Part shown: piece by piece, positions 4,876 through 28,301 of the stretch
How positions within the stretch are numbered: the stretch's first letter is position 1
Layout: each line of letters begins with the position of its first letter
NCBI GenBank assembly: GCA_016869765.1
Contig: VGES01000036.1
Location: 1 to 37,491, forward strand
DNA length: 37,491 bases
Origin: Alphaproteobacteria bacterium
GTDB taxonomy: Bacteria; Pseudomonadota; Alphaproteobacteria; SHVP01
Reading direction: 5' to 3'
The notes under the pieces: generated by a model
The model's database searches: none
What the model was told of the DNA's origin: nothing
What the model saw: the letters and a program-made list of their open reading frames with translations, nothing else
Made by a program: the position numbers and the translations under genes

Positions 4876-5871
4876 ATGACCGACATCGTTGCGCCGAACG
4901 GCATACCCGTCAGCATTTGCGTGATCGGGACCGCCAACCTGGAGCGATCACTCGAGTTCTATCGCGATCTGCACGGCATGGACGCGAGCAAGCCCGTCGC
5001 CTGGAGCGGTCTGGCCTTCGAGACCCACTGGCACCTGCCCAAGGGCTCGAGCGCCACGGCGGTGCTGTTGCACGCCGGCCCGGATCCGGTCGGACGCATT
5101 CTGCTGCTCGACTTCCACGCCAAGCAGCGCGAGCTGATTCGCGGTCGCAATGTCGTCGGGCGGAGCTACGGCCTGTTCAACATCAACTTCTACACGGCCG
5201 ACATTTGGGGCGACTACCGCCGTTTCAGGGACAAGGGCTACGAGTTCTGGTCCGAACCCGTGCAACACGAGTTCAACGGCAACGTCGGCGCTCCGATCGA
5301 GGTCGTTTTCGAGGGACCCGATACGGTTCTGGTCAATTGGGTCGAATTGGCCGCCACCGACCCGAAGCAACGGATCGGCCAGATGCGAGCCTTCGTCGAC
5401 CAATACGGGCGAACGCGGACGGGCTTCACGCCCGTCGTCACCACGGCTTCGGTGATGCGCGACATCACGAGGTCGCGAACGTTCTATCAGCGCGTCTTCG
5501 ACATGGGCATCCACATCGATCAGGTGCTCGAATCCGAGGGGTACCGGCGCTTTCAGAAGGTGCCGCCGGGCGGCCGCACCCATGTCACGTTCATGCAGGG
5601 CAACCACATGTTCGGCAAGATCGCGACCTCGCAGCCGCTCAACTACGACATTCCCGACGTGGTGCCGCTCGCCGTCGCGCCCAACATCGGCTACATCGCC
5701 CAGAGTTTCCTCGTGCCCGACATGGCCGAGACCGAGCGGCGGTGCAAGGCGATGGCGGTCGAGGTCTACTCGCCGCGCATGGACATCGAGATTCCGGGCC
5801 TCGGCATGCGTCACGCGATGATCGTTCGCAACCCAGGTTCGGGCTGCCTGCAACAAGTGATCCAGGCCTGA
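4876..5871 (+). CDS. Two-domain VOC (glyoxalase/extradiol dioxygenase-like) protein, metal triad apparently absent
   Basis: A 331-residue protein with two VOC modules. The first opens PVSICVIGTANLERSLEFYR; the second opens PVVTTASVMRDITRSRTFYQ near residue 190. Length and two-module layout resemble type I extradiol dioxygenases (about 300 residues). Those need two His and one Glu in the C-terminal module. Here the positions expected to hold them read Thr (PVVTT), a Gln/Ser region (GYIAQSFLVPD) and Gln (GCLQQV), so the iron triad seems missing. It may bind a ligand without metal or use another ligand set. GGGAGG lies five bases before the ATG. It leads a co-directional set of four genes; the next start is eight bases beyond its stop. 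Confidence 0.75.
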   Translation: MTDIVAPNGIPVSICVIGTANLERSLEFYRDLHGMDASKPVAWSGLAFETHWHLPKGSSATAVLLHAGPDPVGRILLLDFHAKQRELIRGRNVVGRSYGLFNINFYTADIWGDYRRFRDKGYEFWSEPVQHEFNGNVGAPIEVVFEGPDTVLVNWVELAATDPKQRIGQMRAFVDQYGRTRTGFTPVVTTASVMRDITRSRTFYQRVFDMGIHIDQVLESEGYRRFQKVPPGGRTHVTFMQGNHMFGKIATSQPLNYDIPDVVPLAVAPNIGYIAQSFLVPDMAETERRCKAMAVEVYSPRMDIEIPGLGMRHAMIVRNPGSGCLQQVIQA

Positions 5872-5879
5872 GCGACCCG

Positions 5880-6674
5880 ATGATCCGCAAGCAATACATC
5901 GAGGGTCGCTACGGGCAGGTGCACGTCCGCCTCGTCAGGCCGCCGGCCGAGAAAACCCGGCCGCTCGTGTGCTTTCACCAGAGCCCGCTGTCGGGGCGCA
6001 TGTACGAGACGTTCATGACGGCCATCGGCGATGACCGCCGGGTGGTGGCACCCGACACCGTCGGGTTCGGTGAATCCGCGGCGGCCCCCCGATCTCTGAC
6101 CATCGCGGACTACGCGGAGGCCCATGGCGATGCCATCGATGCGCTGATCCAAGGGGAATTCGATGTCCTCGGCACCCATACCGGCGCTCGCATGGCCGTC
6201 GAGGTCGCGTTGCAGCGTCCCGACCAAGTGCGTCACGTCGTGCTCATCGGCTGTGCGGTCTACACCGAGGAGGAGCGGGCCAGGCAACGCGCGTGGACGG
6301 GGGCCTCGGCGCAGCCGACCGAAGGATCGGACGGCTCTCACCTGTTGCGCCTATGGCACAACTGGGCGCAGTTCCGTGGGCCTGGCGTGACCGATGCGAT
6401 GATCGATCGCTATATGGCGGACTCGCTTCGCCGGCGTGATCAGGTATCGGACGTCATGAAGGCGGTGTTCTCCCACGACATGACGCGTGTGGGCCTCGTT
6501 CGCTGCCCTGTCCTGGTGTTCAATGTTCGCGACGACATCTACGAGGCGACCAAGCGCGCCGAGCCCTTGCTCCAGCGCGGGCGCGTGGTCGACATGTCGC
6601 CGTCGGGCTTATGGTTGACGGAGACACGAACAGCCGAGGTCGTGGCGATGATCCGCGACCATCTGAGCCGCTGA
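5880..6674 (+). CDS. Alpha/beta hydrolase with His at the nucleophile position
   Basis: A 264-residue alpha/beta-hydrolase-fold protein. The oxyanion block is HQSP (33-36), the strand-helix turn PDTVGFGES follows (58-66), and the nucleophile elbow reads GTHTG (98-102), placing His100 where Ser, Asp or Cys is expected. The C-terminal strand VLVFNVRDD carries the usual acid, but the region where the catalytic His should be reads PSGLWLTET with no His. By comparison the fused hydrolase at 17580 keeps His there. This copy therefore lacks both nucleophile and catalytic base as normally defined. It shares the IEGRYGQ start block and DGSH motif with both domains of the fused protein. The ATG is eight bases beyond the VOC stop; the next gene starts nine bases after. 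Confidence 0.82.
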   Translation: MIRKQYIEGRYGQVHVRLVRPPAEKTRPLVCFHQSPLSGRMYETFMTAIGDDRRVVAPDTVGFGESAAAPRSLTIADYAEAHGDAIDALIQGEFDVLGTHTGARMAVEVALQRPDQVRHVVLIGCAVYTEEERARQRAWTGASAQPTEGSDGSHLLRLWHNWAQFRGPGVTDAMIDRYMADSLRRRDQVSDVMKAVFSHDMTRVGLVRCPVLVFNVRDDIYEATKRAEPLLQRGRVVDMSPSGLWLTETRTAEVVAMIRDHLSR

Positions 6675-6683
6675 TCGGGAGAG

Positions 6684-7649
6684 ATGGCCTTGGCCGCCAG
6701 CGCCCTTCAGGTCGTGACGTTGGGCGTGAGCGATCTCCGCGAATCGCTGCGCCTGTTTCACGATCTCATGGGGCTGCAAATCGACCGCGAGGCCGCTCTG
6801 CCCGAGGAACTGTTGCGGTTCTGGGGTGTTGCCGCAGGCGTATCGGCCCGCGCGGTCGAGCTCTCATGCGGCGGTTACCCGGTGGGGCGGCTCCGCCTGG
6901 TCGCGTTCGATCCGCCGGCGCGGCAAAGGGCGCGCGATGACCACGGCCCGGGCTGTCCGGATACCCCCTTCGATGTCGGTCCCAAGGCAATCGACTTCTA
7001 TGTTCGACCTCCGATCACCGATGCGGTGAAGGACATCGAAGGGGCCGGCTACCGGTTCCGCTCGGCGCCGATCCGCTATGAGATCGGACCCTACGAGAGC
7101 GAGGAACTTCTGTTCTCCGGGCCCGACAACACGCCGATCCTGATCATGATCGGGCACCGCCACCCCGAGAGTTCGCAACGGCGGCTGCCGCCGGGGGTGC
7201 GCTACAGCGAGGTCCCGACGGTGTCGATCCGTTGCGCCGACATCGCCGCGACGCGCCGCTTCTATGGTGAGGCCCTGGGCCTCCACTGCGGCACCGATGC
7301 CGAGGTGACCGACGAGTTTCGTGATCTCGCCTGTACGCTGACCGGCGTCCCCAAGGGATCGCGGCTGCACTTTCTCACCTACCAGAAGCAAGGTGAGCCG
7401 AGCGGCAAGACGCTGCTCATCCATCTGTTCGAGCGCACCGGACGGCGGCTGACCGATCGCATGCGGCCCGGCAATCTCGGCGTCACGCTTTACACCTATG
7501 AGGCGGACGATCTCGTCGGTTTGCGTGCGCGCCTGATGGCGGCGGGCGGAGCGATCGTGGCGGAGCCTGCTCACTGCGCTGGGCGACAGCGCATGTTGGT
7601 CAAAGGGCCGAACGAAGAACTTTTCGAGTTCCTCGAACAGGCAGGTTGA
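6684..7649 (+). CDS. Two-domain VOC protein, paralogue A
   Basis: A 321-residue two-module VOC protein. Module 1 begins LQVVTLGVSDLRESLRLFHD; module 2 begins VPTVSIRCADIAATRRFYGE near residue 185. It ends with GPNEELFEFLEQ, which keeps the terminal Glu of the VOC metal site, but the His expected at the first strand of module 2 and in the LGVTLYTYEADD strand are absent. It is clearly paralogous to the next gene: both carry GPKAIDFY, IRYEIGP, ESEELLFSGPD and GHRHP. GGGAGAG precedes the ATG. Its stop is two bases before the next start, so the pair is surely co-transcribed. Confidence 0.75.
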   Translation: MALAASALQVVTLGVSDLRESLRLFHDLMGLQIDREAALPEELLRFWGVAAGVSARAVELSCGGYPVGRLRLVAFDPPARQRARDDHGPGCPDTPFDVGPKAIDFYVRPPITDAVKDIEGAGYRFRSAPIRYEIGPYESEELLFSGPDNTPILIMIGHRHPESSQRRLPPGVRYSEVPTVSIRCADIAATRRFYGEALGLHCGTDAEVTDEFRDLACTLTGVPKGSRLHFLTYQKQGEPSGKTLLIHLFERTGRRLTDRMRPGNLGVTLYTYEADDLVGLRARLMAAGGAIVAEPAHCAGRQRMLVKGPNEELFEFLEQAG

Positions 7650-7651
7650 GG

Positions 7652-8602
7652 ATGGCGACATCGGCGATGATCGCAGTCACGGTGGGGGTAAGCGATGTCG
7701 ATTCCTCGCTCCGCCTGTTTCGCGACACCATGGGCCTCTCGGTCGAGCACGATGCCCCGGTTGGGCCCGAACTCGCCGCATTCTGGGGACTCGAGGCGGG
7801 CAATCGTCAACGGTTGGTCGAGTTGTCCTACGGCGGCTATCGCGCCGGTCGGCTACGGCTGTTGTCGGTCGATCGCGCGTCGCCGCTGGTCCGCGACGAC
7901 TATGGAGCGTCGAGTCCGGACTCGGCGAGCGATATCGGCCCCAAGGCGATCGACTTCTACACACGGCCGCCCATCAGCCGTGCCATCGAGGTCATGAAGC
8001 GCGCCGGTTGCGTACAGCGTTCGGAGCCCATTCGCTACGAGATCGGCCCGGTCGAAAGCGAGGAGCTGTTGTTTTCGGGCCCCGACGACGTCCCGATGTT
8101 GATCATGGTAGGACATCGCCACCCGCCGTCCTCCCTGCGCTCGGCGACGCTCCCAGGTCTGTTCAGCGAGATCCCGACGACGTCGGTGATCTGTGCCGAC
8201 TTGACCGAGAGTCGCCGCTTCTATGGCGAAGGGTTGGGACTGGCGACGGGCACCGACGCCGAGGTCAAGGAGCCCTACACGGACTTGGCCTGCCGCCTGA
8301 CCGGGGTGCCATCCGGGACGCGGGTGGCCCTGCTTGCCTACCTCAAGCCGGGCGAGCCCAGTGGCAAGTTGCTGCTCGTGCATTTTTTTGGTGCCTCGCG
8401 GCGGCGACTTTCTGGTCGCATGCGCCCCGGTCACCGCGGGCTGTCGCTGTTCACCTACCGGAGCGACGACCTTCCCGCGCTGGAGCGACGCCTGAATACA
8501 ATCGGGGCGACGTTCGTCGCCCGACGAACACTCGTGAACGGACGCGAACGGATGCTGGTTCGCGGGCCAAACGAAGAGTTGATTGAGATCATCGCGTCCT
8601 AG
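7652..8602 (+). CDS. Two-domain VOC protein, paralogue B
   Basis: A 316-residue protein, tandem duplicate of the preceding gene, with modules beginning IAVTVGVSDVDSSLRLFRDT and IPTTSVICADLTESRRFYGE. It ends GPNEELIEII, again with only the terminal Glu of the usual triad visible. The differences are spread over the length rather than clustered, so the duplication is old and both copies seem under selection. ATG at 7652 was preferred to TTG at 7646 because the latter overlaps the previous stop region; the purine run GAGG lies just before. The function is presumably linked to the neighbouring hydrolase; no substrate can be named. Confidence 0.75.
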   Translation: MATSAMIAVTVGVSDVDSSLRLFRDTMGLSVEHDAPVGPELAAFWGLEAGNRQRLVELSYGGYRAGRLRLLSVDRASPLVRDDYGASSPDSASDIGPKAIDFYTRPPISRAIEVMKRAGCVQRSEPIRYEIGPVESEELLFSGPDDVPMLIMVGHRHPPSSLRSATLPGLFSEIPTTSVICADLTESRRFYGEGLGLATGTDAEVKEPYTDLACRLTGVPSGTRVALLAYLKPGEPSGKLLLVHFFGASRRRLSGRMRPGHRGLSLFTYRSDDLPALERRLNTIGATFVARRTLVNGRERMLVRGPNEELIEIIAS

Positions 8603-8605
8603 GAT
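8600..8605 (+). promoter_or_regulatory. Possible -10 element before the pentapeptide gene
   Basis: TAGGAT overlapping the stop codon of the VOC gene, 36 bases before ATG 8642. TTGATT at 8579-8584 could be a -35, but the 15-base spacer is short. Weak call, listed because the same hexamer recurs elsewhere in the window. Confidence 0.25.
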
Positions 8606-8641
8606 ACTGCGGGTCACGGTCAACATCCGGCATGACCGGCT

Positions 8642-9760
8642 ATGGACGAACTCGACGACATCATCGCCAAGCACCGGCGGTACTTGGACAATCGTCCGGG
8701 CGGGCGGCGGGCGGATTTGCGCAATCGTGACCTGAGCGGCCTCGATCGGCCGTTTCTCATCCTCCGTCGGGCACTGTTGACAGGGGCCAATCTCGCCAAA
8801 GCCAACCTGCCAGGCGCCGACCTCTCGGGGAGCGACCTGTTCTGCGCCAATCTCGAGCGGGCCAATCTGACCAAGGCGAACCTCGAAGGATCCGACCTGC
8901 GGGGCTGCCGTCTGCGCGGAGCCGAATTGCGTGGTGCCAATCTCGCCGATATCGACTTGCGACCGGGCTCGCTTGGCGGTGGGGGCGGTGAGGGCAAGGC
9001 CGATCTCACCGACGCCAACCTCGAAGGTTCGGTGCTGCGCCGTGCCAAGATGCTCTATGCAGTCCTCAAGGGAGCGGTGCTCAAGCAGGCCGACATGCGG
9101 GGCGTCGCGTTGCAGCACGCCGACCTTCAAGGGGCAAACCTCAGCCTCGCCAATCTCGCAGGCGCCAAGCTCGATCAGTCGAATCTCACGGCCGCGACCC
9201 TGGAACACGCGAACCTCGATCAGGTCAGCTTGCAGGGGGCCAAGCTCAACAGCGCCGTCCTGATCGGGGCTCGGGTCGATCAGCGGGCGTTGAGGTTGGC
9301 GGTCGGGGCGGCCGAGTCGTTGGCGCGTTCGGCCGACTTGCAGCACAAACTCCGCGAACACGCCATGTGGGTCGAGTCCTTCGGTGCCCGCGGCAAGAGG
9401 CTGTCCTTGGAGGGCGCCGATCTGCGTGGCATCAGTTTGTCGGGCGCCAAGCTGAGTGGTGTGCGCATGACCAAGTGCGAGCTGTCGAAGGCGAACTTCG
9501 CCGGGGCGGAGCTGACGCTGGCGGTGCTGACGGGTTCGACCCTGCGCGAGGCCAACCTCACCGATTGCGACCTGCGCGGGGCCATCCTGCGCGATGCCGA
9601 CCTGCGCGACGCGATTCTCGTGCGGGCCAATATCGGCTCGATCATGGTCCGCGATTCCGATGGTGCTCCGACGGGACAACTGCGCCATGCCGATCTGCAC
9701 GGCGCCCAGATGCAGGGCGCCAATCTCAAGGGCGCCCAGTTCGAGGAGCGCTTCGACTAG
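8642..9760 (+). CDS. Pentapeptide-repeat protein
   Basis: A 372-residue protein built of A(D/N)LxG-type pentapeptides, for example GANLAKANLPGADLSGSDLF. Two similar modules are visible. Module 1 starts with a short helix (HRRYLDNRPGGRRADLRNRD); module 2, near residue 235, starts LREHAMWVESFGARGKRLSL. Each is followed by a run of repeats expected to form a right-handed four-sided helix. A glycine run (SLGGGGGEGK, near residue 112) interrupts the first solenoid. There is no signal peptide. Some proteins of this class mimic DNA and bind gyrase, but most have no known role and nothing here decides. Its stop overlaps by four bases that of the convergent rhodanese gene. Confidence 0.9.
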   Translation: MDELDDIIAKHRRYLDNRPGGRRADLRNRDLSGLDRPFLILRRALLTGANLAKANLPGADLSGSDLFCANLERANLTKANLEGSDLRGCRLRGAELRGANLADIDLRPGSLGGGGGEGKADLTDANLEGSVLRRAKMLYAVLKGAVLKQADMRGVALQHADLQGANLSLANLAGAKLDQSNLTAATLEHANLDQVSLQGAKLNSAVLIGARVDQRALRLAVGAAESLARSADLQHKLREHAMWVESFGARGKRLSLEGADLRGISLSGAKLSGVRMTKCELSKANFAGAELTLAVLTGSTLREANLTDCDLRGAILRDADLRDAILVRANIGSIMVRDSDGAPTGQLRHADLHGAQMQGANLKGAQFEERFD

Positions 9761-10662
9761 TTGTCGACGTTGACCCGGCGGACCATCGGACTGGTGGGAC
9801 GCGCGGTCCACTCGGAGAACCCGCCGACGTAGAGCCGCGCCGCCTTGTTGTTGAGCAACTCGTAACTCACGAACCAACCCAACGAGGCTTCGAGCGAGGC
9901 GTCGGCGATGTTGATCAGGCGCCCCTGCGGCGGAACCTGCGCGTGATTGAGCACCCGCAGCAGTTCTTGGGGCGTGCGGAATACGCCGGCCCCGTCGCGC
10001 ATCAGCCAATCGGTCGGCAGGTTTTTGGCGCCCGGAATCGTGCCGGGTCGCCGGACGTAGCTCGACCAGTTCAGCCCCAGGAAGTGACCGACCGGGCGGT
10101 GGTCGATGATATCGCTGACCCCGAGCGAGGCGAAGACGTCGTCGTACGTGGCGCGCAGGCGGGCGATCGGTCGCTTCGCTTCGTATTGCGTCTTGGCGCG
10201 CCGCGGCACCTGCGCATCGACCGGGCCCCGCGCCGCGCGAAACGCGTTCAAACCCCCGTTGAGGATCGAGACCTCGTCGTGGGCAAAGAACTTGAACGTC
10301 CAATAGACATCGGTCGCTACGGCCATATCGCGATCGCTCGACCCAGTCGCCACGATGACGACGTGGGTGTCATTGTCGATTCCAAGGCCGGACATGATCT
10401 CGGCGAATTCTTCGGGGGTCGGCAGCGTGATTCGTCCGTCGTCTTCGAGCGTCCGCCAGCCCGCCTCGGGATAAAGCGTGTGGACCGCACCCACGACGTG
10501 ACGTCGCTCGTAGTTTCGCTCCGACTGGACGTCGAGAAATATGATGCCAGGCGTGCGCAGGTTGGCGATCGCCCAGGCGGCGTCGACCAGGGGCTCGGCG
10601 GCATGAACGCGCCCGGCCAAGCCAATCCACAGCACCAACGCAAGAAGAATCGAAATCCGCAT
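9757..10662 (-). CDS. Exported tandem rhodanese-like protein without any cysteine
   Basis: A 301-residue protein with a Sec signal peptide (MRISILLALVLWIGLAGRVHA, cleavage expected after AHA/HAA near 21) and two rhodanese domains. Domain 1 has FLDVQSERNYERRHVVGAVH; domain 2 has GTIPGAKNLPTDWL and RLYVGGFSEW, the classic C-terminal sulfurtransferase blocks. The active-site loop, normally CxxGxxA in domain 2, reads INIADASLEAS, and there is no Cys anywhere in the protein. It therefore cannot form a persulfide and may be a binding or regulatory domain. Start 10662 has GGGAGG about seven bases upstream; an ATG at 10677 is an alternative. It is divergent from the amidohydrolase operon across 249 bases. 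Confidence 0.85.
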   Translation of the reverse strand: MRISILLALVLWIGLAGRVHAAEPLVDAAWAIANLRTPGIIFLDVQSERNYERRHVVGAVHTLYPEAGWRTLEDDGRITLPTPEEFAEIMSGLGIDNDTHVVIVATGSSDRDMAVATDVYWTFKFFAHDEVSILNGGLNAFRAARGPVDAQVPRRAKTQYEAKRPIARLRATYDDVFASLGVSDIIDHRPVGHFLGLNWSSYVRRPGTIPGAKNLPTDWLMRDGAGVFRTPQELLRVLNHAQVPPQGRLINIADASLEASLGWFVSYELLNNKAARLYVGGFSEWTARPTSPMVRRVNVDN

Positions 10663-10875
10663 TCCGATGCCTCCCATTCCCTACTCGTTGACCGGGTGAT
10701 CGGAGGCAGTCGTTGGCGGGTACGGCGGGGGCAAACCTCAGCGCACACGCCAGGTCCCCCGCCCGGAGCGAGAGAAATCTAGCCACCCGTTGCGGTCCAT
10801 GGCAACGCCCGCGGGCAATCTTGGCAGGGCTTTTTTTCGCCGGTCGTTTACCGATTGGCAACCTCCGATCGAGCC

Positions 10876-10904
10876 TTGACTTGAATACCCTTGGCCCGTT
10901 TAAC
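10876..10904 (+). promoter_or_regulatory. Promoter of the amidohydrolase-monooxygenase set
   Basis: TTGACT (10876-10881), a 17-base spacer and TTTAAC (10899-10904). The predicted start point lies at or next to the ATG at 10912, so the transcript may be leaderless. The -10 is embedded in a palindrome listed separately. Confidence 0.6.
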
Positions 10905-10908
10905 GGGC
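10894..10908. promoter_or_regulatory. 15-base palindrome over the -10, candidate operator
   Basis: GCCCGTT, central T, AACGGGC: a perfect seven-base inverted repeat with one central base, covering the whole -10 hexamer of the promoter for 10912-16716. A repressor bound here would block RNA polymerase. No regulator gene is present between 4876 and 19259, so the binding protein is probably encoded elsewhere. Confidence 0.5.
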
Positions 10909-10911
10909 GGT

Positions 10912-11760
10912 ATGAATGCATCCGCTCATCCAATTGACCCAGCGTCCTCGCTCCGGGTGGCCGATGTCTGGGCCAACCTGTGGGACGTGGCGTTCTTCCG
11001 AGCCCAACCGGCGATGCAGGCGCTCTACGACCGTCTCGGTATGCAAGCGCGCGCCGGCGTCACGACAGAGACGCTGACGCGGGAAGCCGAGGCCGGTGGC
11101 GTCGAACGGATCGTCGTCTCGGCGACGGATTTCGCCGGAACCCCGGTCGACAATCGGGCCGTGGCGCGTTTCGTCGCCCAGGATCCGAAGCGCTTCGTCG
11201 GTTGCGCCAGCGTCGATCCTCGGCGCGGCATGGAAGGGGTGCGAGAATTGCGCCGCGCGGTGTCCGAGGATGGCCTGCGTGGCCTCAAGGTGTTGCCGTT
11301 CCTCTACGACCTGCCGCCCAACGACGCGCGCTATTTTCCGCTCTACACGGCGTGCATCGACCTCGAGATTCCGGCGTTGGTGCTGACCGGGCATACCGCG
11401 GTCCAGGCGCGTTCCGAGGTCGGTCGGCCGCTCTATCTCGACGACGTCGCGCTCCACTTTCCCGAGTTGGTGATCATTGCCGGTCATGCCGGCTATCCTT
11501 GGACCGACGAACTGATATCGCTGGCCTGGAAACATCCCAACCTCTACATCGACACCTCGGGCCATCGGCCGAAGTACTTTCCGCCAGCGCTCAAGCACTT
11601 CCTCAACTCCTACGGCCGCGACAAGGTCATGTTCGGGACGGGGTACCCGTTCATGGACTACGCCGGGCCGGTCGGCGATGCCCGCGATATGGAACTGCGC
11701 CCCGAGGCACGACAGCGTTTCCTGTGGGGCAATGCGGCGCGCGTCTGGGGTTGGGCATGA
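10912..11760 (+). CDS. Amidohydrolase-2 family protein with altered metal site
   Basis: A 282-residue TIM-barrel protein of the amidohydrolase-2 (ACMSD/gamma-resorcylate decarboxylase-like) group. Family blocks: ADVWANLWD at the first strand, RFVGCASVDPRRGMEGVREL, GLKVLPFL, LVLTGHTA, ELVIIAGHAGYPW, HPNLYIDTSG and KVMFGTGYPFMDY. In active relatives the first block is DxHxH and the last is FGTDYP. Here the HxH is replaced by Trp-Ala-Asn and the late Asp by Gly, while the two middle His remain. It may be metal-free or non-enzymatic. ATG 10912 was chosen over TTG 10891 because the promoter places transcription start there. The stop overlaps the next ATG by four bases (ATGA). Confidence 0.8.
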   Translation: MNASAHPIDPASSLRVADVWANLWDVAFFRAQPAMQALYDRLGMQARAGVTTETLTREAEAGGVERIVVSATDFAGTPVDNRAVARFVAQDPKRFVGCASVDPRRGMEGVRELRRAVSEDGLRGLKVLPFLYDLPPNDARYFPLYTACIDLEIPALVLTGHTAVQARSEVGRPLYLDDVALHFPELVIIAGHAGYPWTDELISLAWKHPNLYIDTSGHRPKYFPPALKHFLNSYGRDKVMFGTGYPFMDYAGPVGDARDMELRPEARQRFLWGNAARVWGWA

Positions 11761-12953
11761 AGGCGTTGTCGCTCCTCGATGGGCTGACGATCGTCGATCT
11801 CTCGATGTTCGTCGCCGGTCCGTTCGGGTCGATGGTGTTGGCCGATCTCGGGGCCGACGTGATCAAGATCGAGCCGCTGTCCGGCGATCCGGTGCGCAGC
11901 AATCGCATCGGGCCGCAGCTCGGCGGCGAGAATGCACAGTTTCAAAGCTACAACCGCAACAAACGCAGCATCGCCGTCGACCTCAAGGCGGCCGATGGTC
12001 GACGGGTCGTCGAGCGTCTGGTCGAGAAATCCGACGTCGTGTTCGACAACTTCCGTCCCGGCGTCCTCGAACGCCTGGGGCTCGACCACGAACGACTCCG
12101 CACCCTCAACCCGCGGATCATCTCCTGCTCGGTCTCCGCGTTTGGGCAGAAAGGACCGTGGAGCGACCGTCCCGGATACGACTTGATCGTCCAGGCGCTC
12201 GGTGGCGGCATGAGTCTCACCGGTCACGACAGGACCGGTCCGGCTCATATTCCGTTCCACCTCGGCGATACAGCGGCGGGCCTCTACGCCGCGATCGCCA
12301 TCCTCGCCGCGGTGGCCGACCGCGCCCGCACCGGGGTCGGGCGGCGGGTCGAGGTCAGCTTGCTGGATGCCCAGCTCGCCCTTCTCGGCGATGAGGTGAC
12401 CAACCACAGCGTTTCCGGGCAGGCGCCGCTTCGCCATGGCGCGGGCCATCCCAATTTCTTCCCCTATCAGGCGTTTGCGACCGCCGATGCGCCGATCGTC
12501 GTGGCGGCCGTCGGAGTCGAGAAGTTCTGGCAATCCTTGTGCCGGGTGATCGCCCGTCCCGAACTGGCCGAAGACCCGCGGTTCGTCGGCAACGACTCTC
12601 GCGTCAGGCGTCGTGACGAACTCGAGCCCATCCTGGCCGAGGCATTCCGCACCAGGACTCGCGACGAGTGGTTGGACGCGCTTACGGCAGCCGACATTCC
12701 GGCCGCACCGATTCTCGCCGTGCCGGAAGCGTTGGGAACGCCCCCGGCCAAGCATCGCGGCATGGTGCAGGAACTCGACCTCGGCGAGCGAGGCCGGGTC
12801 AGGGTCGCTGGCAACCCGGTGCACGCCGAGCACGGGTCCCGGTCCTTTCGGCCGGCGCCGCGCCTGGGCGCGGACTTGGAGGCGGTCCTCGCATCGCTTG
12901 GTTACGACTCGGAATCGATTGCAGCGCTGCGCCGCGCCGGCGTCATTCGCTGA
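11757..12953 (+). CDS. CaiB/BaiF family (class III) CoA transferase
   Basis: A 398-residue family III CoA transferase, close to the usual 400. The N-terminus LDGLTIVDLSMFVAGPFGSM is typical, as are LADLGADVIKIE, NRNKRSIAVDL, DNFRPGVLERLGLD and ISCSVSAFGQKGPWSDRPGY. The catalytic Asp that forms the acyl-aspartyl intermediate is in FHLGDTAAGLYA, near residue 178. So, unlike several neighbours, this enzyme looks fully competent. It moves CoA between carboxylic acids, which suggests the cluster's substrate or a product is a carboxylate. It overlaps the amidohydrolase stop by four bases. It is followed after 78 bases by the monooxygenase genes. Confidence 0.93.
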   Translation: MKALSLLDGLTIVDLSMFVAGPFGSMVLADLGADVIKIEPLSGDPVRSNRIGPQLGGENAQFQSYNRNKRSIAVDLKAADGRRVVERLVEKSDVVFDNFRPGVLERLGLDHERLRTLNPRIISCSVSAFGQKGPWSDRPGYDLIVQALGGGMSLTGHDRTGPAHIPFHLGDTAAGLYAAIAILAAVADRARTGVGRRVEVSLLDAQLALLGDEVTNHSVSGQAPLRHGAGHPNFFPYQAFATADAPIVVAAVGVEKFWQSLCRVIARPELAEDPRFVGNDSRVRRRDELEPILAEAFRTRTRDEWLDALTAADIPAAPILAVPEALGTPPAKHRGMVQELDLGERGRVRVAGNPVHAEHGSRSFRPAPRLGADLEAVLASLGYDSESIAALRRAGVIR

Positions 12954-13031
12954 GTCCCGGGGTTGTTCGCTGGATGAGCGGAGCCGGCCATCGCCTTGCC
13001 CACGCCGATGGGCGCATGCGACAAGTCGACC

Positions 13032-14252
13032 ATGGATGCGATCACTGAGAACGACGATCTCCTGGCCCTCGAGGCCGAGCTCGTCCGGCGGGCGCACGCG
13101 CTGGGGCCCAGGTTTCGCGAGCGGGCGGCGGCGACCGAGCAGAACCGTGCTCTTCTGAAAGAGACGATGCAGGACCTGTTCGAGGCGCGGCTGCTGCGCT
13201 ACTTCCAGCCCCGTCGCCACGGTGGGTTCGAACTCGAGTGGGGCGCACAGTACGCGATCGGGCGGGCGGTGGCGCACTATTGTCCCTCGACCGCCTGGAT
13301 CGTCGCCGTCGTGGGAGCGCACGCGTCGTTCTTGTCGCGGATGAAGCCCGAGGTTCAGGACGAGGTCTGGGGGCCGAACCAGGACCAGTTGATCGCGACA
13401 GGATCGGTGACCAAACGGGGCGGGGCGAGGCGCGTTCCCGGAGGACTCCAAGCGTCGGTCCAGGTCGGGTTCTCGAGCGGTTGCGACCATGCCGAATGGG
13501 CCATGTTCGGCGTCAAGGTCGAGGGGGCGCACGACCACTACCAGATCGTCGTGCCCCGCAAGGACTGGCAGATCGCCGATACCTGGCACGTCGCGGGCAT
13601 GCGCGGCACCGGCACGAAGGACCTGGTGCTCGAAGACGTCTTCGTCCCCGAGCACCGCACGTTGTCGGTCCATGACTGGATCAACGCGAACCCACCGGGC
13701 GCCAAAGCGAACCCGGGTTACATCTCGCACGTCGAATTCATGCCGTTCGTCGGCACAAGCCTGCTCGGTCCGATGGTCGGGGCCGCCGAAGGTGCGCTGA
13801 ATGGTTACGTCGAGACGACGCGAAGCCGGCGCGGCGTCATGTTCGGGGAGCAAGTGGCCGACTCGGCCACGGTTCAGTTGCGGCTCGCCGAATCCTCGGC
13901 CGAATTGTCGGCCGCCGATGTCGTGATTCGCGACCAGATCGCCTATCTCCGTCACGTCGGTCATTCGGGCGAGACGGTTCCCGCCGAGAAGCGGCTGTCG
14001 ATGAACCGTGACCGGGCTTTTGCCGGCCGCCTGTGTCTCAGCGCCACCGAACGGTTGACCGCGCAAATGGGCGCGCTCGGTTTGTTCGACAGCAACCCCG
14101 TGCAGCGCCATTTTCGCGACGTAAACGCCATCGCGACCCAGATCGGGATCAACTGGGATCGCAACATGGCGCCTTACGCGAAGTGGCTGCTCGGCCTTCC
14201 CACCGGGGACCCCAAGATCGACGGCGAAAATCGCCAGAAGGCTCCCGAGTGA
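13032..14252 (+). CDS. HsaA-like group D flavin monooxygenase, paralogue 1
   Basis: A 406-residue protein with the acyl-CoA dehydrogenase fold as used by FADH2- or FMNH2-dependent hydroxylases (HsaA, the C2 oxygenase of 4-hydroxyphenylacetate 3-hydroxylase). Family blocks: LRYFQPRRHGGFELEW, CPSTAWIVAVVGAHA, FSSGCDHAEW, WHVAGMRGTGTKDLVLEDVF and NPVQRHFRDVNAIATQIGIN. Such enzymes hydroxylate phenols ortho to the hydroxyl and need a separate flavin reductase; none is in the window. In oxygenases of this group a His is expected near the RDxNxxxxH stretch; here it reads ATQ. The start is uncertain: 13032 fits homologue length but lacks a clear ribosome site; 13008 is the alternative. The stop overlaps the next ATG by one base. 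Confidence 0.83.
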   Translation: MDAITENDDLLALEAELVRRAHALGPRFRERAAATEQNRALLKETMQDLFEARLLRYFQPRRHGGFELEWGAQYAIGRAVAHYCPSTAWIVAVVGAHASFLSRMKPEVQDEVWGPNQDQLIATGSVTKRGGARRVPGGLQASVQVGFSSGCDHAEWAMFGVKVEGAHDHYQIVVPRKDWQIADTWHVAGMRGTGTKDLVLEDVFVPEHRTLSVHDWINANPPGAKANPGYISHVEFMPFVGTSLLGPMVGAAEGALNGYVETTRSRRGVMFGEQVADSATVQLRLAESSAELSAADVVIRDQIAYLRHVGHSGETVPAEKRLSMNRDRAFAGRLCLSATERLTAQMGALGLFDSNPVQRHFRDVNAIATQIGINWDRNMAPYAKWLLGLPTGDPKIDGENRQKAPE

Positions 14253-15460
14253 TGGTGATGACGCCACGACCCGTATGTGCGTCGGGCGAGCGACGAACGC
14301 TCGACGATCTGCTCGGCGTGGTTGCGCAACACGCAGGGGCTTGGCGGGATCGTGCGCTGGCGACCGAGCGGGCACGCCAGCCGCTACCCGAGACGACGGC
14401 GGAGCTGTTTGCGACAGGTTTGATGCGCATGTTCGTCCCGGCCCGCTTCGGGGGCGCGGCGCTCGATTGGGACGCGCCGGTGGCCTTGGGACGGGCGATC
14501 GGACGGGTATGTCCGTCGACGGCGTGGATGGTCGGCGTGGTCGGGGCCCACGCCGCGTGGGTGGGGCGCTACCCTGGCGCGGCGCAGGAGGAGGTCTGGG
14601 GCGATGGGGCCGACCAGTTGCTTTGTGGGGCCATGGTCGCCAAGGGGGGGCGCATTCGCCGCGACGGCGAGGGTTATCGGGTCAGCGGGGCATTCGGGTT
14701 CGCGTCCGGCATTGACCACGCGAAATGGGGTTTCGTGATGGGTTCGGTCGAGGGCTCGACCGAACAGGTCAGTTGTCTGATGCCGCGTACCGACTGGGAC
14801 ATCGCTGATACATGGTTCGTGTCCGGTATGAGTGGGACCGGAACCAAGGATATTGTCGTGCATGATGCCTACGTGCCCCCGCACCGGGCGGTGCGTTCGG
14901 CCGACCTCCTCAAAGCCGACCCACCGGGGGCCACGATCAATCGCGAGCCGATCTACCGTGCCGAATACGGACCCTACGTCGGCAGTTCGCTGCTCGGCCC
15001 GATTCTCGGCGCGGCGGAAGGGGCGATGGACGCCTACCTCGCGATCACCCGAGAACGCAAAGGGATGATGTTCGGGGACCGCGTCGCCGAGTCGGCGAAC
15101 GTCCAAAGCCGCCTCGCCGAATCGACCGGCGATGTGCGGGCCGCTGCACTGATGACGGAGGACCAGATGCGAACACTCGTGGCCTGCTCGCGAGGCGATG
15201 CCAGGCTTTCCGAGGGCGAACGACTGATGTTCGCGCGCGATCGCGCCTATGTCGCTCGGCGGTGCAGCGAGGCCGTCGAGCGCCTCGTCAAGCACATGGG
15301 TGCCTCGGGCCTCTACGACGACAATCCGGTGCAACGGTTCCATCGTGATCTGCAGGCGATGGCCCAGCAGATCGGAGTCAATTGGGACCGCAACATGTTA
15401 CCGTTCGCGCGCTGGCTGATCGGTGGCGCGTCCCAGGATCACAGCAACTGGCGTCGTTAG
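14252..15460 (+). CDS. HsaA-like group D flavin monooxygenase, paralogue 2
   Basis: A 402-residue paralogue of both flanking genes. Shared blocks: MRMFVPARFGGAALDW, CPSTAWMVGVVGAHA, FGFASGIDHAKW, WFVSGMSGTGTKDIVVHDAY, SSLLGPILGAAEGAMD and NPVQRFHRDLQAMAQQIGVN. The start overlaps the previous stop (TGATG); a second Met codon lies two codons downstream. This copy is the most divergent of the three in its N-terminal 60 residues. The role is as for paralogue 1: the oxygenase part of a two-component hydroxylase by family, substrate unknown. Three unequal oxygenases may cover different intermediates or may form a mixed oligomer, since family members are tetramers. Confidence 0.83.
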   Translation: MVMTPRPVCASGERRTLDDLLGVVAQHAGAWRDRALATERARQPLPETTAELFATGLMRMFVPARFGGAALDWDAPVALGRAIGRVCPSTAWMVGVVGAHAAWVGRYPGAAQEEVWGDGADQLLCGAMVAKGGRIRRDGEGYRVSGAFGFASGIDHAKWGFVMGSVEGSTEQVSCLMPRTDWDIADTWFVSGMSGTGTKDIVVHDAYVPPHRAVRSADLLKADPPGATINREPIYRAEYGPYVGSSLLGPILGAAEGAMDAYLAITRERKGMMFGDRVAESANVQSRLAESTGDVRAAALMTEDQMRTLVACSRGDARLSEGERLMFARDRAYVARRCSEAVERLVKHMGASGLYDDNPVQRFHRDLQAMAQQIGVNWDRNMLPFARWLIGGASQDHSNWRR

Positions 15461-15477
15461 GCGCGCGGGAGGAACCT

Positions 15478-16716
15478 ATGGCATTTGCCGAGCGGATCGA
15501 CAGCAGCGTACCGACGGTCGCCGAACTCACGAAACGGGCCGAGGCGATGCTTCCCCGACTGCGGGAGCGTGCGACCAAGACCGAACAGGCACGCACGCTC
15601 CCCGCGGATACGATGCGCGATCTGTTCGACGCGGGCTTTCTGCGCATTCTGCAGCCTAGACGGTATGGCGGTTATGAAATGGGTTGGGCCGTGCACGCCG
15701 ATGTGGCGCGCGTCCTGTCGCGGGCCTGTGCCTCTACGGCCTGGATCGTGTCGGTGGTCGGCGCGCATGCGGCGATCGTCGGGCGGCTCAGCAAAGAGGT
15801 GCAGGACGACGTCTGGGGCAAGAACCAGAACCAATTGATCGCCACGGCATCGGCGCGCACCAAAGGGGGCGCGCGCAAGGTCGACGGCGGCTACCGCGTC
15901 AGCGGGGTCTGGCATTTCGCGAGCGGCATCGATCACTCGGAGTGGTCGATGGTCACAACGCCGGTCGAGGGCAACGACCCCAAGGATCATTCGAAGTTCG
16001 TCCGGCTGATGGCGCCGACACGCGACATCGAAATCGTCGACTCCTGGCACGTCTCGGGCATGCGCGGGACGGGCAGCAAAGACATGAAGTGGGACGACGT
16101 GTTCGTGCCCGACGCCCGTTCGATCAATGCCCATCAGTCGTTCGGCAAATCCCCCCCGGGAGCGGCCGTGAACCCAGGCGGGTACCTGTACGAAGTCGAG
16201 TTCATGCCGTTCTTCGGGTCGAGTTTGCTCGGACCCATTCTCGGAACGGCCGAGGGCGCGTACGCCGACTATCGCGACATCACGCGGGTGCGGACGGGTG
16301 CGTTGTTTGGCGGCTCGGTCGCCGAGCAGACGCCGGTGCAGCAGCGCCTCGCCGAGGTGTCGGCCGAAATCAAGGCCGCGCGTCTCCTCTACGAGACCAA
16401 CAATGCCATGATGCATCGCAAGGGCGAGGCCCGGCAGCGCTTCAGCCAGGAGGAGATCCTCGAGATCAACCGCGATCGCGCGTACGTCGCGCGGCTGTGT
16501 GTAAACGCGGTGACCCGATTGGTCCGCCAGATGGGGGCGATGGGCCTGTTCAACCAGAACCCGGTGCAGCGCCACTATCGCGACATCACCGCGATGGCGA
16601 CGCAGGTGGCGGTCAACTGGGACCGCTGCATGAATCCCTATGGCGCGTTCGAATTGGGAGTCCCCCTCGGTGCCGACTCGCGATTGACGCAGACCGAGCC
16701 GCTGCGCAAACCGTGA
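15478..16716 (+). CDS. HsaA-like group D flavin monooxygenase, paralogue 3
   Basis: A 412-residue third paralogue, preceded by a good ribosome site (GGGAGGA, five bases before ATG 15478). Blocks match the family well: LRILQPRRYGGYEMGW, CASTAWIVSVVGAHA, VWHFASGIDHSEW, WHVSGMRGTGSKDMKWDDVF, FMPFFGSSLLGPILGTAEGA and NPVQRHYRDITAMATQVAVN. It is closer to paralogue 1 than to 2 in the QPRR-GG and GMRGTG regions. It differs by an insertion (GNDPKDHSKF) in the strand pair before the GMRGTGS block. It closes the operon; the convergent SDR stop is one base away, so no terminator fits between. Confidence 0.85.
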   Translation: MAFAERIDSSVPTVAELTKRAEAMLPRLRERATKTEQARTLPADTMRDLFDAGFLRILQPRRYGGYEMGWAVHADVARVLSRACASTAWIVSVVGAHAAIVGRLSKEVQDDVWGKNQNQLIATASARTKGGARKVDGGYRVSGVWHFASGIDHSEWSMVTTPVEGNDPKDHSKFVRLMAPTRDIEIVDSWHVSGMRGTGSKDMKWDDVFVPDARSINAHQSFGKSPPGAAVNPGGYLYEVEFMPFFGSSLLGPILGTAEGAYADYRDITRVRTGALFGGSVAEQTPVQQRLAEVSAEIKAARLLYETNNAMMHRKGEARQRFSQEEILEINRDRAYVARLCVNAVTRLVRQMGAMGLFNQNPVQRHYRDITAMATQVAVNWDRCMNPYGAFELGVPLGADSRLTQTEPLRKP

Positions 16717-16717
16717 T

Positions 16718-17461
16718 CTAACGGCGCTCGTGCGTCATGGCATAGGGCTTGGGCGCGGTCTGCTGGGTGATCAACGGCAGCTCCGAGCCGTCGGGGTCGA
16801 AGAACTTGCCGGAATCGGCCGGGGTCAGGCGCTCGATGATCTTGGCCAGCATGGCGACACTCTGATCGGGCGTCAGCGCCGCCTGGCCCACCGTCTTGTC
16901 GTTCTGGACCCAACCGGGATGGGCGGCGACGGCGATCACGCCCCGGGGAGCGAGGCCGATCGCCAATTGTTTGACCACCTGGTTCAACGCCGACTTCGCG
17001 GCACGGTAGGCGACGACCCCGTACGTCGGTTTCGGGCCGATCCGACTTGAGATGGTGAAGATGATCTTGCGATCGCTCGCTGCGACATGTGCGGCGAAGG
17101 CTTCGGACACCATCATCGGGCCGATCGTGTTGACCTGGAACACTTTGAGCCAATCGCCGTAGTCGGTATTGCCGAAGGGAACACCCATCCGGCCATTGCC
17201 GGCGAACCCGGCATTGTTCACCAGGAGGTCGATCGATTGGCCGGCGAGGTCGCTTGCTAGGCGGCGCACCGCCGTCGCATCGCTGATGTCCATGTCGTGC
17301 ACGGTGATGCGGCCGTGGCTTGCGGCGGCCATGGCCTTGAGCGCATCGGCGTTCCGCGCATCGCGGCAGGTCGCGAAGACCCTCCAGCCGCGATCGGCAT
17401 AGTGCCGTACGAAGGCGAGGCCGAGATTGCGGGCGGAACCGGTGATGAGAGCGATCGGCAT
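16718..17461 (-). CDS. Short-chain dehydrogenase/reductase
   Basis: A 247-residue classical SDR. The cofactor motif is TGSARNLG (7-14), with Asn where the central Gly of TGxxxGxG is usual. NNAG is at 82-85, the catalytic Ser lies in IIFTISSRIG and the Tyr-Lys pair in Y152RAAK156. It resembles the SDR at 1130-1852 along its length (WKVFQVN-type block, LKVFQVNTIGP). It probably oxidises or reduces an alcohol or ketone in the surrounding pathway, by location only. GGGAG lies several bases before ATG 17461. It is divergent from the fused hydrolase across 118 bases. Confidence 0.88.
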   Translation of the reverse strand: MPIALITGSARNLGLAFVRHYADRGWRVFATCRDARNADALKAMAAASHGRITVHDMDISDATAVRRLASDLAGQSIDLLVNNAGFAGNGRMGVPFGNTDYGDWLKVFQVNTIGPMMVSEAFAAHVAASDRKIIFTISSRIGPKPTYGVVAYRAAKSALNQVVKQLAIGLAPRGVIAVAAHPGWVQNDKTVGQAALTPDQSVAMLAKIIERLTPADSGKFFDPDGSELPLITQQTAPKPYAMTHERR

Positions 17462-17579
17462 GGCGGTCTCCCGCATCTCCCCTACGCCCGAAGACTGTGG
17501 CGCGCAAGCGGCCAACAACCCAGACGGCGCTTGGCGGGCGGGGAACGGGCTGGGTAAGGTTGGGAATCGAGGGGGACCC

Positions 17580-19259
17580 ATGGACGAAAGCGCCTACTGG
17601 CGGCGGCCCACCAACGTGCGACGCAGTTACGTCGAGGGGCGGTTCGGCCAGATGCACTATCGCATTGCCGAGCCGATGGGGGCCGGGCGCGTCCCGGTAC
17701 TCTTCATCCACTCGAGTCCCAGCTCGGGTCGGATGTACGAAGCCGTTCTGGCGGACCTCGGTCGCGATCGGATCGCGGTCGCGGGCGACACCCCTGGCTT
17801 CGGGGACTCCGATCCGCCGCTCGCGCCGCCCGAGATTCCCGACTACGCCGCGGCCCACGGTGATCTCGCCGACGCCCTCGGGCTCACACAACTCGACCTC
17901 GTCGGCTACCACACGGGTAGCAAAGTGTGCCTCGAACTCGCGCAGCAGCGTCCCGGGCTGGTCCGTCGCATTGTGCTCGTCTCGGCGCCGGTCTACTCGG
18001 CCGAAGAACTGGCGCGTCAAAAGGTCGACTACGCCGATCCAGGAGTGCCCCGCGATGGCTCCCATCTCGCCAGCCGCTGGGCGTTCATGATGCGTTGGCG
18101 CAAACCCGACACCCCGCTCATCGTCGCTCAACGATCGCTCGCCGACTCGCTCAAGGGCGGGCGGACCGCCCATTGGGGACATCGTGCCGCGTTCAACTAT
18201 CATCACGCGGAGAACCTGCCCAAGGTCGATCACCCGGTCCTGGTGATCAATCCCGACGATGACCTCGTGGCCCCGACCGCCCGTGCTGCCCCGTTGCTGC
18301 GCAATGGTCGCATCATCGAAGCCCCGACGTGGGCGCACGGCTTCATCGATGTCCACACCGGCGATTTCGCCGCCCTCTTGCGAGGGTTTTTCGACGGCCC
18401 GGCGCAGGACCGCACCACGGGCGGCGCGGCTAAGGGGCCGCCCGCGCGACCGGCGCGAATCGCCGTGTCGGGGGCCCGCCGCTTCCTCCCCGGGCGCCAC
18501 GGTCTAGTCCATGTTCGCATTGCTGGCGCAGAAACGCGTGGTCGGCGCCCGTTGATGCTCTTCCACATGAGCCCCAATTCGAGTCGGATCTACGAGGGTT
18601 TTCTCGCCGCGATGGGGCGCGATCGACTGACGGTGGCCGTCGATACGCCGGGGTTCGGCGAATCTGACGCACCGGCAACGATGCCCGCGATCGAGGATTA
18701 CGCCCAGCAAATGGCCGAGGTGGCCGACAGCCTCGGCTTGGCGGCGGTCGACGTCATGGGCTATCACACGGGCTCTCACATCGCGATGGAACTCGCGCTG
18801 CGTCGTCCGACGCTCGTCCGCCACGTCGTCATGGTCTCGGCACCGCTCTACACGGAGGACGAACGGGCGCTGCGCCATGCGCGGAACCGGCCCATGGAGA
18901 TCCGACCCGACGGCTCCCACAACGTCGAGCGCTTCCGCTTCATCTGGCAGTTCTACGGCGAGGATGTGCCCGGCGAGATCGTCGCCAGGAACTTCGCCGA
19001 GAGTCTCCGTGGCGGTCCGATGTCCTGGTGGGGGCATCGCGCGGCGTTCAACTATCCCATGCGGGAGCGGCTGCCGATGGTCCGCCAACCGGTCCTCGTC
19101 CTCAATCCGAACGACGACTTGGCGCAGCAGACCCCGCGCGCCAAAGACCTCCTGCGCCGCGGTCGAATCCACGATTTCCCGCGATATTCACACGGCATGC
19201 TGGACGCCCATACGGACGAGGTGGCGGGGGTCGTACGGGGATTTGTCGATTCCCCGTAG
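17580..19259 (+). CDS. Fusion of two alpha/beta hydrolase domains, both with His at the nucleophile elbow
   Basis: A 559-residue protein made of two homologous alpha/beta-hydrolase domains (about 1-272 and 300-559) joined by an Ala/Gly/Pro-rich linker. Domain A: HSSP (44-47), DTPGFGDSD, elbow GYHTG with His111, acid in NPDDD (225-229), WAHGF with His253. Domain B: HMSP (329-332), DTPGFGESD, elbow GYHTG with His396, NPNDD, YSHGM with His538. Both share DGSH and WGHRAAFNY. Thus each has acid and base but His in place of Ser/Asp/Cys. The single-domain relative lies at 5880. A ribosome site (GAGGGGGA) precedes ATG 17580. Most relatives I know of are single-domain, so the fusion is unusual; an internal pseudo-dimer is likely. 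Confidence 0.85.
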   Translation: MDESAYWRRPTNVRRSYVEGRFGQMHYRIAEPMGAGRVPVLFIHSSPSSGRMYEAVLADLGRDRIAVAGDTPGFGDSDPPLAPPEIPDYAAAHGDLADALGLTQLDLVGYHTGSKVCLELAQQRPGLVRRIVLVSAPVYSAEELARQKVDYADPGVPRDGSHLASRWAFMMRWRKPDTPLIVAQRSLADSLKGGRTAHWGHRAAFNYHHAENLPKVDHPVLVINPDDDLVAPTARAAPLLRNGRIIEAPTWAHGFIDVHTGDFAALLRGFFDGPAQDRTTGGAAKGPPARPARIAVSGARRFLPGRHGLVHVRIAGAETRGRRPLMLFHMSPNSSRIYEGFLAAMGRDRLTVAVDTPGFGESDAPATMPAIEDYAQQMAEVADSLGLAAVDVMGYHTGSHIAMELALRRPTLVRHVVMVSAPLYTEDERALRHARNRPMEIRPDGSHNVERFRFIWQFYGEDVPGEIVARNFAESLRGGPMSWWGHRAAFNYPMRERLPMVRQPVLVLNPNDDLAQQTPRAKDLLRRGRIHDFPRYSHGMLDAHTDEVAGVVRGFVDSP

Positions 19260-22747: not shown

Positions 22748-22749
22748 CC

Positions 22750-23868
22750 ATGCTCCTCGGCGTTCCGCGCGAGATCAAGAACCACGAATACCGCGTCGGG
22801 ATGACGCCCGGATCGGTTCGCGAGGCCATGCACCACGGCCATCAGGTTGTCGTCGAAGCCGGTGCTGGTCGCGCCATCGGACTCGAGGACGACGCCTATC
22901 GCCAGGCGGGCGCGACGATCGTCGCCGAGGCGGCGGAGGTCTATCGCCGGGCGGACATGGTCGTGAAGGTCAAGGAACCGCAAGCCTCCGAGTTCGGACT
23001 CCTGCGCCGGGACCAGATCCTGTTCACGTATTTGCATCTGGCGCCTGATCGCAAGCAGACCCGCGCCCTGATCGACTCGGGCTGCATCGCCGTGGCCTAC
23101 GAGACGGTCACCGACGCCCGTGGCGGTCTGCCCCTGCTTGCGCCGATGAGCATCGTGGCGGGGCGGATGTCGGTGCAGGTCGGCGCCAGCTGCCTGGAGA
23201 TCGCGCGGGGCGGTCGTGGTCAGTTGCTGGGCGGCGTTCCTGGCGTTCCGCCGGCCAAGGTCGTCGTGTTGGGGGGCGGCACGGTCGGGACGAACGCGTT
23301 GCGCATGGCGCTCGGACTCGAGGCCGACGTCGCCGTGCTCGACAAAAGCCTGTCGCGACTCTACGACCTCGATCTTCAGTTTGGCCCCGCGCTCAAGACC
23401 GTGTTCGCGACGCTCGAAGCGGTCGAAGAACACGTGGTCGCCGCCGATCTCGTGATCTGTGGCGTGTTGGTGCCGGGAGCGGCTGCGCCAAAGCTGATTA
23501 CCGCCGACATGGTGCGGCACATGAAGCGCGGCGCCGTCATCGTCGACGTGTCGATCGACCAGGGCGGCTGCAGCGAAACCAGTCGGCCGACGACGCACGC
23601 CGATCCGACGTATGTCGTGGATGGTGTCGTCCACTATTGCGTCACCAACATGCCGGGGGCGGTGGCGCGCACCTCGACGTTCGCGCTCAACAACGCGACG
23701 CTACCGTTCGTCCTGGCGCTGGCCGGCAAAGGTTGGCAGCGTGCGATGAAGGACGATCCGCATCTCGCCAACGGACTCAATGTCGCGCAAGGACGTCTGG
23801 TGAACGCCGCAGTAGCCGACGCCTTGGGCCTCGACCATCTCCTGCTGTCGCGCGTTCTCCAGGCCTGA
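22750..23868 (+). CDS. ald: Alanine dehydrogenase
   Basis: A 372-residue enzyme, the usual length. N-terminal signature MLLGVPREIKNHEYRVGMTP; substrate-binding Lys in VVKVKEP and His in YLHLAPD; NAD-binding Rossmann motif VVVLGGGTVGTNALRMA; VIVDVSIDQGGCSETSRPT and the closing block VTNMPGAVARTSTFALNNAT. It oxidatively deaminates L-alanine to pyruvate and ammonium with NAD+. Placed two bases after the aminotransferase, it would regenerate the pyruvate acceptor while releasing ammonium, making the pair a beta-alanine (or other omega-amine) degrading unit. No Shine-Dalgarno distinct from the end of the previous gene is seen, so translational coupling is likely. Confidence 0.95.
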   Translation: MLLGVPREIKNHEYRVGMTPGSVREAMHHGHQVVVEAGAGRAIGLEDDAYRQAGATIVAEAAEVYRRADMVVKVKEPQASEFGLLRRDQILFTYLHLAPDRKQTRALIDSGCIAVAYETVTDARGGLPLLAPMSIVAGRMSVQVGASCLEIARGGRGQLLGGVPGVPPAKVVVLGGGTVGTNALRMALGLEADVAVLDKSLSRLYDLDLQFGPALKTVFATLEAVEEHVVAADLVICGVLVPGAAAPKLITADMVRHMKRGAVIVDVSIDQGGCSETSRPTTHADPTYVVDGVVHYCVTNMPGAVARTSTFALNNATLPFVLALAGKGWQRAMKDDPHLANGLNVAQGRLVNAAVADALGLDHLLLSRVLQA

Positions 23869-28291: not shown

Positions 28292-28301
28292 GGAGGCCAA
28301 C

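Follow-up and report, generated by a model that had tools for sequence, protein, structure and literature searches.

We examined a 37,491-nucleotide stretch of DNA (the window), which is the entire contig C36 (VGES01000036.1) of an alphaproteobacterial genome assembly (3.99 Mb, 99.6% complete), and in it a set of putatively catabolic genes between positions 4876 and 19259. This set is made up of separable modules rather than forming a single conserved pathway, and the replaced active-site residues in its enzymes are traits of wide or lineage-expanded subfamilies that are gathered in a paralogue-rich genome. The best supported functional unit of the set is a pair of genes that encode an amidohydrolase-2-fold protein (AHS) and a class III CoA-transferase (CoAT), and this pair is the only part that is clearly linked above background. 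With a probability of about one half, we read the set as a catabolic neighborhood of an uncultured aquatic alphaproteobacterium that is rich in paralogues, like SAR202, and in which AHS-CoAT, flavin oxygenases, and alpha/beta-hydrolases would process an organic acid. (That the host is aquatic, we infer from its named relatives.)

To scan for the pair, we searched a genome collection with AHS orthologues alone, so the association with CoAT was not built into the search. AHS orthologues (52–75% identity) were found at eight loci in several alphaproteobacteria, of which L084 is in G003, L086 is in G008, and L087 is in G002. CoAT follows AHS at all eight loci and is directly adjacent at seven of them; at L089, transposases intervene. 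The 4-bp overlap between the two genes recurs in L086, L087, and L088. Two single-amplified genomes of Rhodobacteraceae hold the pair at 52% identity, and there it is flanked by very different genes, which by eye are SDRs, TRAP DctP-Q-M, an amidase, and MmgE/PrpD. The pair has TRAP genes in its vicinity in these two genomes as well as in G003, G006, and L089. As a separate observation, in one Rhodobacteraceae single-amplified genome (L090, 1-9438) the pair adjoins an apparent full cluster for the degradation of purine, urate, and allantoin (by eye), and a hydantoin-racemase-like gene is also beside it.

CoAT matches PF02515 over its full length, and its catalytic Asp is invariant (nine of nine sequences). 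In both respects it resembles the formyl-CoA and succinate-HMG class III CoA-transferases, but it scores below all of their equivalog cut-offs (at best 295 of 750 bits). What the pair most directly suggests is that CoA is transferred to an organic acid after its import.

AHS is in the same TIM-barrel family (PF04909) as the ACMSD-type amidohydrolase-2 proteins. It has DVWAN in place of DxHxH and FGTGYP in place of FGSDYP, which means that the HxH and the last Asp are missing. FGTGYP is shared by the orthologue group; most paralogues have FGTDFP or FGTDWP. The ligands of a metal-dependent amidohydrolase (HxH on strand 1 and Asp on strand 8) were not found in the AHS orthologues. The nearest solved relative is the uncharacterized protein BB4693 (3irs, E = 6e-24), in which the last Asp is likewise missing (FGTAYP). 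AHS differs from both the ACMSD-type proteins and BB4693 in lacking DxHxH and in being coupled with a CoA-transferase. LigI is a metal-independent member of the amidohydrolase-2 family. AHS proteins without HxH are present in many Proteobacteria.

The other genes of the set lie around this pair. Set 1 (4876-8602, + strand) comprises four co-directional genes with gaps of 2–9 bp, and set 2 (10912-16716, + strand) comprises the pair and three oxygenase genes, also co-directional and tight. Between them are genes for a pentapeptide-repeat protein and a rhodanese without its Cys. In detail, the features are as follows:

4876..5871, + strand: VOC-A, a two-domain glyoxalase/dioxygenase-fold protein (PF00903, E = 2e-12)
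5880..6674, + strand: ABH1, a single alpha/beta-hydrolase with the elbow GTHTG (PF00561)
6684..7649, + strand: VOC-B, a two-domain VOC protein (PF00903)
7652..8602, + strand: VOC-C, a tandem duplicate of VOC-B (PF00903)
8642..9760, + strand: pentapeptide-repeat protein (PF00805, E = 1e-65), which starts 39 bp past VOC-C
9757..10677, - strand: rhodanese-like protein with a putative signal peptide (PF00581)
10912..11760, + strand: AHS, the amidohydrolase-2-fold protein (PF04909, E = 6e-47)
11757..12953, + strand: CoAT, the class III CoA-transferase (PF02515, E = 4e-124), with the 4-bp overlap with AHS
13008..14252, + strand: FMO1, an HsaA/HpaB-like flavin oxygenase (PF08028; 278 bits for NF045629)
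14252..15460, + strand: FMO2, a paralogue of FMO1 (PF08028, Gln variant)
15478..16716, + strand: FMO3, a paralogue of FMO1 (PF08028, Gln variant)
16718..17476, - strand: SDR (PF00106, E = 4e-31)
17580..19259, + strand: ABH2, a fused double alpha/beta-hydrolase (two PF00561 stretches)

A preliminary description of this DNA had reported two tight co-directional sets plus an SDR and a double hydrolase, all intact, and the coordinates, reading frames, and GC content at third codon positions (GC3) are as it gave them. The calls from open reading frames, GC3, and a codon model agree, and no stops or frameshifts were found in the catabolic genes. Every enzyme class is borne out by its Pfam assignment, and none of the 10 window proteins that were scanned reached an NCBIfam equivalog cut-off. 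There is also no match to the curated Hsa or bph families.

FMO1, FMO2, and FMO3 have Gln at the position of the conserved peroxyflavin His of HsaA, HpaB-C2, and XiaF. In XiaF, this His (His371) positions and protonates the flavin hydroperoxide (PMC5481743). The three proteins otherwise resemble these enzymes over the full length of the fold and sequence (E down to 1e-63), including the SG.DH motif of the flavin site, and the closest solved structure is HsaA (E = 2.5e-61). They differ in lacking the group D catalytic His over the flavin C4a, in that flavin reductases are encoded only elsewhere in the genome, and in falling below the curated cut-offs (278, 253, and 299 bits, respectively, against 450 bits for the HsaA family NF045629). 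The Gln oxygenases form a single clade (33 proteins with Gln and one with His inside it; support 100/99). Within our sample, the clade is confined to this bacterial family, and outside the clade nearly all members of the class carry His. The window's own genome (G000) has 13 FMOs in all (genome-wide paralogue counts are from searches of the genome collection and from fetched stretches). The preliminary description had the flavin reductase as missing, which is true of the window but not of the genome: it has four PF01613 flavin reductase genes, all on other contigs. One of these adjoins two His-type FMO paralogues (L094, G000 C9:54779-57730), which together make a complete two-component set.

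In the alpha/beta-hydrolases, the replaced residue is at the nucleophile elbow, which reads GTHTG in ABH1 and GYHTG in both halves of ABH2, where Ser is expected. The elbow His aligns onto the Ser nucleophile of 1a88 and 4g5x. Recurrent features of 72 domains, taken from this genome and its relatives, are the GxHTG elbow and an HxSPxSxR strip, and an Asp also recurs among the relatives of the hydrolases. ABH2 keeps the Asp and the C-terminal His, and the C-terminal His is absent from ABH1. An AlphaFold2 model of the second half of ABH2 (made from a five-row alignment; pLDDT 83.6, pTM 0.87) predicts that His101 occupies the nucleophile elbow, with strand 95-100 before it and helix 102-113 after it, and the model superposes on PcaD (2xua) with a Z score of 30.4 and 252 residues aligned. 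This fold search confirmed an ordinary alpha/beta-hydrolase fold and did not reveal the function. The likeness to the PcaD enol-lactonase and the HsaD-type hydrolases consists of the fold, the acid Asp, and (for ABH2) the C-terminal His; the differences are the change of the nucleophile from Ser to His, the HxSPxSxR oxyanion strip, and the fusion of two domains. Scores for the HsaD family are 20.6 and 57.6 bits against a cut-off of 400, and the Ser (in GxSxG) of the meta-cleavage C-C hydrolase triad is absent from ABH1 and from both halves of ABH2. In the open-access literature, we found no described family of hydrolases with a His nucleophile or with GxHxG.

There is a precedent for an alpha/beta-hydrolase fold that works via a His-Asp base, both in the HOD dioxygenases (PMC10548524) and in the hydroxynitrile lyases (PMC3444685). 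HOD-type dioxygenases are marked by activity on 3-hydroxy-4-oxoquinolines and by a His-Asp base, and the His and Asp positions are present in ABH2. These enzymes serve as precedents for the mechanism rather than as established relatives by sequence. By this analogy, the GxHTG hydrolases may use a His-Asp base. The elbow residue is Ser or Ala in HOD, AqdC, and the hydroxynitrile lyases, but His in the GxHTG hydrolases; furthermore, HOD can do without its elbow Ser, while the hydroxynitrile lyases still require theirs.

Single-domain GxHTG hydrolases are also found on plasmids of Novosphingobium, Variovorax, Streptomyces, and Rhodococcus. With the limit at E = 1e-40, fused double hydrolases were found only in this bacterial family: outside the family, a draw of 240 genomes from the class gave two matches, both of single-domain length, and a draw of 398 genomes from the phylum gave no matches. 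This genome has about ten close, full-length double hydrolases like ABH2, and ABH1 has a 59% identical paralogue in the same genome and a 60% identical orthologue in G006. Variovorax PBL-E5 has a row of genes that combines a GxHTG hydrolase and an AHS without HxH with an acyl-CoA dehydrogenase and an AMP ligase, and G564 and G004 have a similar grouping.

Several other observations touch on these families. The Variovorax row is on a plasmid (L130, 5693-11217), where the order is acyl-CoA dehydrogenase, TTT receptor, hydrolase (with GSHTG), AHS, and AMP ligase; this strain is from linuron-contaminated soil, and the module could readily be studied in it. There is also a further, more distantly related set of fused double hydrolases, which (in L045, L047, L048, L055, L056, L058, and L104) mostly keeps HTG in the first half (GTKTG in L058) and has lost it from the second half. 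In the g4 genomes, a haloalkane-dehalogenase-like hydrolase lies between CoAT and FMO1 (L039, 17015-17983, - strand) and has GHGWG for the expected GxDWG, which is another replaced nucleophile. Finally, a third expanded family consists of long (about 650 amino acids) old-yellow-enzyme-like genes, with several per genome, that often adjoin paralogues of the oxygenases or hydrolases (L095, L054, L048, and L052).

As read from the alignment, the metal ligands of VOC-A, VOC-B, and VOC-C are non-canonical. None of the three matches the extradiol families (HsaC/BphC), the 2-His-1-Glu ligands are not conserved in the alignments, and no BphC-type dioxygenase (TIGR03213) is over the cut-off in the whole genome. 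VOC-A has an orthologue in G006 (65% identity) and another in G002 that is beside the rhodanese and FMO1. VOC-B and VOC-C are 57% identical to each other and have no match in G006 and no close relatives in the family's genomes outside their own. Neither the SDR nor the pentapeptide-repeat gene is matched at the G006 locus. In the rhodanese, which looks secreted, the active-site Cys is replaced (ATG), and this Cys-less form is conserved in G002, G003, and G006, beside AHS or FMO1. By direct reading, the SDR has its catalytic residues (SS...YRAAK, for S..YxxxK) and the Gly motif for nucleotide binding (TGSARNLGLA). As CoAT and the SDR both keep their catalytic residues, the loss of such residues is not universal in the set.

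The preliminary description had stated that the VOC proteins, the hydrolases, and the amidohydrolase lack canonical catalytic residues; this is correct, and it extends to the flavin oxygenases. We also rejected random decay, as it had, because the altered sites are strictly conserved in orthologues. It went on to argue that a loss pattern that recurs across unrelated folds indicates a distinct system, and this is not supported. Each change is a trait of its own subfamily and occurs without the others: GxHTG in Novosphingobium, Streptomyces, and Rhodococcus, the loss of HxH in the AHS proteins of many Proteobacteria, and Gln in the oxygenase clade.

Do the two sets work together? G003 and G006 keep the order AHS-CoAT-FMO1-FMO3-ABH2, with genes for amine and fatty-acid metabolism behind it, and in G006, VOC-A and ABH1 are close to this block. 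However, 9 of 11 adjacent pairs from the window are retained between G000 and G006, as compared to 60 of 67 background pairs (from 0.89 Mb of G006, in stretches around paralogues of the same families rather than a random sample of the genome). Since retention within the family is at the background level, the conserved order is not evidence of linkage, and we rejected it as proof of such. A neighborhood analysis had been proposed as a check on the set: the set as a whole is not conserved together, although the AHS-CoAT pair is.

Behind the set, the gene for a class III aminotransferase precedes one that is alanine-dehydrogenase-like (window 21419-23868), in an order that is kept in G003 and G006; this pairing is known from the catabolism of taurine and other amines. 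Further on is a CoA-linked block (25928-33049) with an acyl-CoA dehydrogenase, an enoyl-CoA hydratase, a TetR gene, an open reading frame without a Pfam match, and an AMP ligase, which is mostly syntenic in G006.

Several results count against a joint catabolic role. The synteny does not exceed background and so lends no support to joint function of the two sets. In G002, AHS-CoAT is on a different contig from FMO1, FMO3, ABH2, the rhodanese, and VOC-A, which lie together. There are no TRAP genes in the window, any enzymatic role of AHS without its metal ligands is conjecture, and the lack of the C-terminal His in ABH1 means that a His/Asp base cannot be general. A less likely but plausible alternative is that the set consists of unrelated modules (AHS-CoAT; FMO1-FMO3-ABH2; and VOC-A/ABH1 with VOC-B/C) that sit side by side and are kept in position by ordinary synteny. 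The roughly 90% retention of pairs in the other stretches tested and the detached pair in G002 would fit with this, as would the wholly different surroundings of AHS-CoAT in L087–L091, the best G006 match to FMO2 being on another contig, and VOC-B and VOC-C being private to this genome. On the other hand, the genes at 10912-16716 are tightly spaced in one orientation; FMO1, FMO3, ABH2, and the rhodanese stay near one another in G002, G003, and G006; and the hydrolase and AHS subfamilies meet again in Variovorax, G564, and G004.

It is very unlikely that these are catalytically dead enzymes in a system for ligand binding, sensing, or scaffolding. The classical catalytic residues are replaced in five folds (counting the rhodanese), but CoAT and the SDR retain theirs, the hydrolases conserve their pocket residues and have His rather than Ala or Gly at the elbow, relatives of the hydrolases and AHS are near genes for acyl-CoA dehydrogenase and AMP ligase in other bacteria, and there are no regulator genes within the sets. 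Slightly more improbable still is a biosynthetic cluster whose enzymes tailor a secondary metabolite: XiaF and other flavin oxygenases of group D can be biosynthetic (PMC5481743), but the sets have no synthase, ligase, or carrier-protein genes, and relatives show TRAP importers and catabolic neighbors. Least probable of all is the idea that divergent enzymes carry out meta-cleavage along the lines of HsaA-HsaC-HsaD or bph, which we rejected despite the likeness of the oxygenases to HsaA and a fitting mix of hydrolase, VOC, and CoA-transferase classes, given the scores far below the HsaA and HsaD cut-offs, the replaced Ser, metal ligands, and flavin His, and the absence of extradiol matches among the VOC proteins and of a BphC-type dioxygenase from the genome.

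If the set does act as a catabolic neighborhood, then an organic acid from dissolved organic matter, probably alicyclic or aromatic, would be imported, and CoAT together with AHS would turn it into its CoA thioester. The product would be oxygenated by the oxygenases with reduced flavin from a diffusible reductase that is encoded elsewhere, and then cleaved or rearranged by nucleophile-independent enzymes of the alpha/beta-hydrolase fold with a His/Asp base. In the uncultured aquatic clade SAR202, flavin oxygenases and further catabolic enzymes show similar paralogue expansions (PMC6946804). Both are lineage-specific radiations, but those of SAR202 involve COG2141, enolases, and ring-hydroxylating dioxygenases, while here the expanded families are group D oxygenases and GxHTG hydrolases, in Alphaproteobacteria. 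One named relative, UBA2966, bears the name of an order that is tied to the processing of aromatic matter in the Arctic Ocean (PMC9789639) and to which the window's genome may belong. A bolder proposal, which we consider doubtful, is that the GxHTG hydrolases and the Gln-type group D oxygenases each represent an undescribed type of enzyme and carry out new chemistry: C-C cleavage or oxygenation without a nucleophile for the former, and peroxyflavin reactions that dispense with the usual His for the latter. Together with AHS-CoAT, they would then make up a CoA-linked pathway, likewise undescribed, that acts on refractory dissolved organic matter.

Overall, AHS-CoAT is a compact, testable two-gene unit, and two enzyme subfamilies with strictly conserved, altered active sites are represented among the catabolic genes of bacteria from water and soil. 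Automated annotation takes them for ordinary hydrolases and HsaA-like oxygenases. Should they catalyze different reactions, many lists of genes for steroid and aromatic degradation in marine bacteria would mis-assign both subfamilies.

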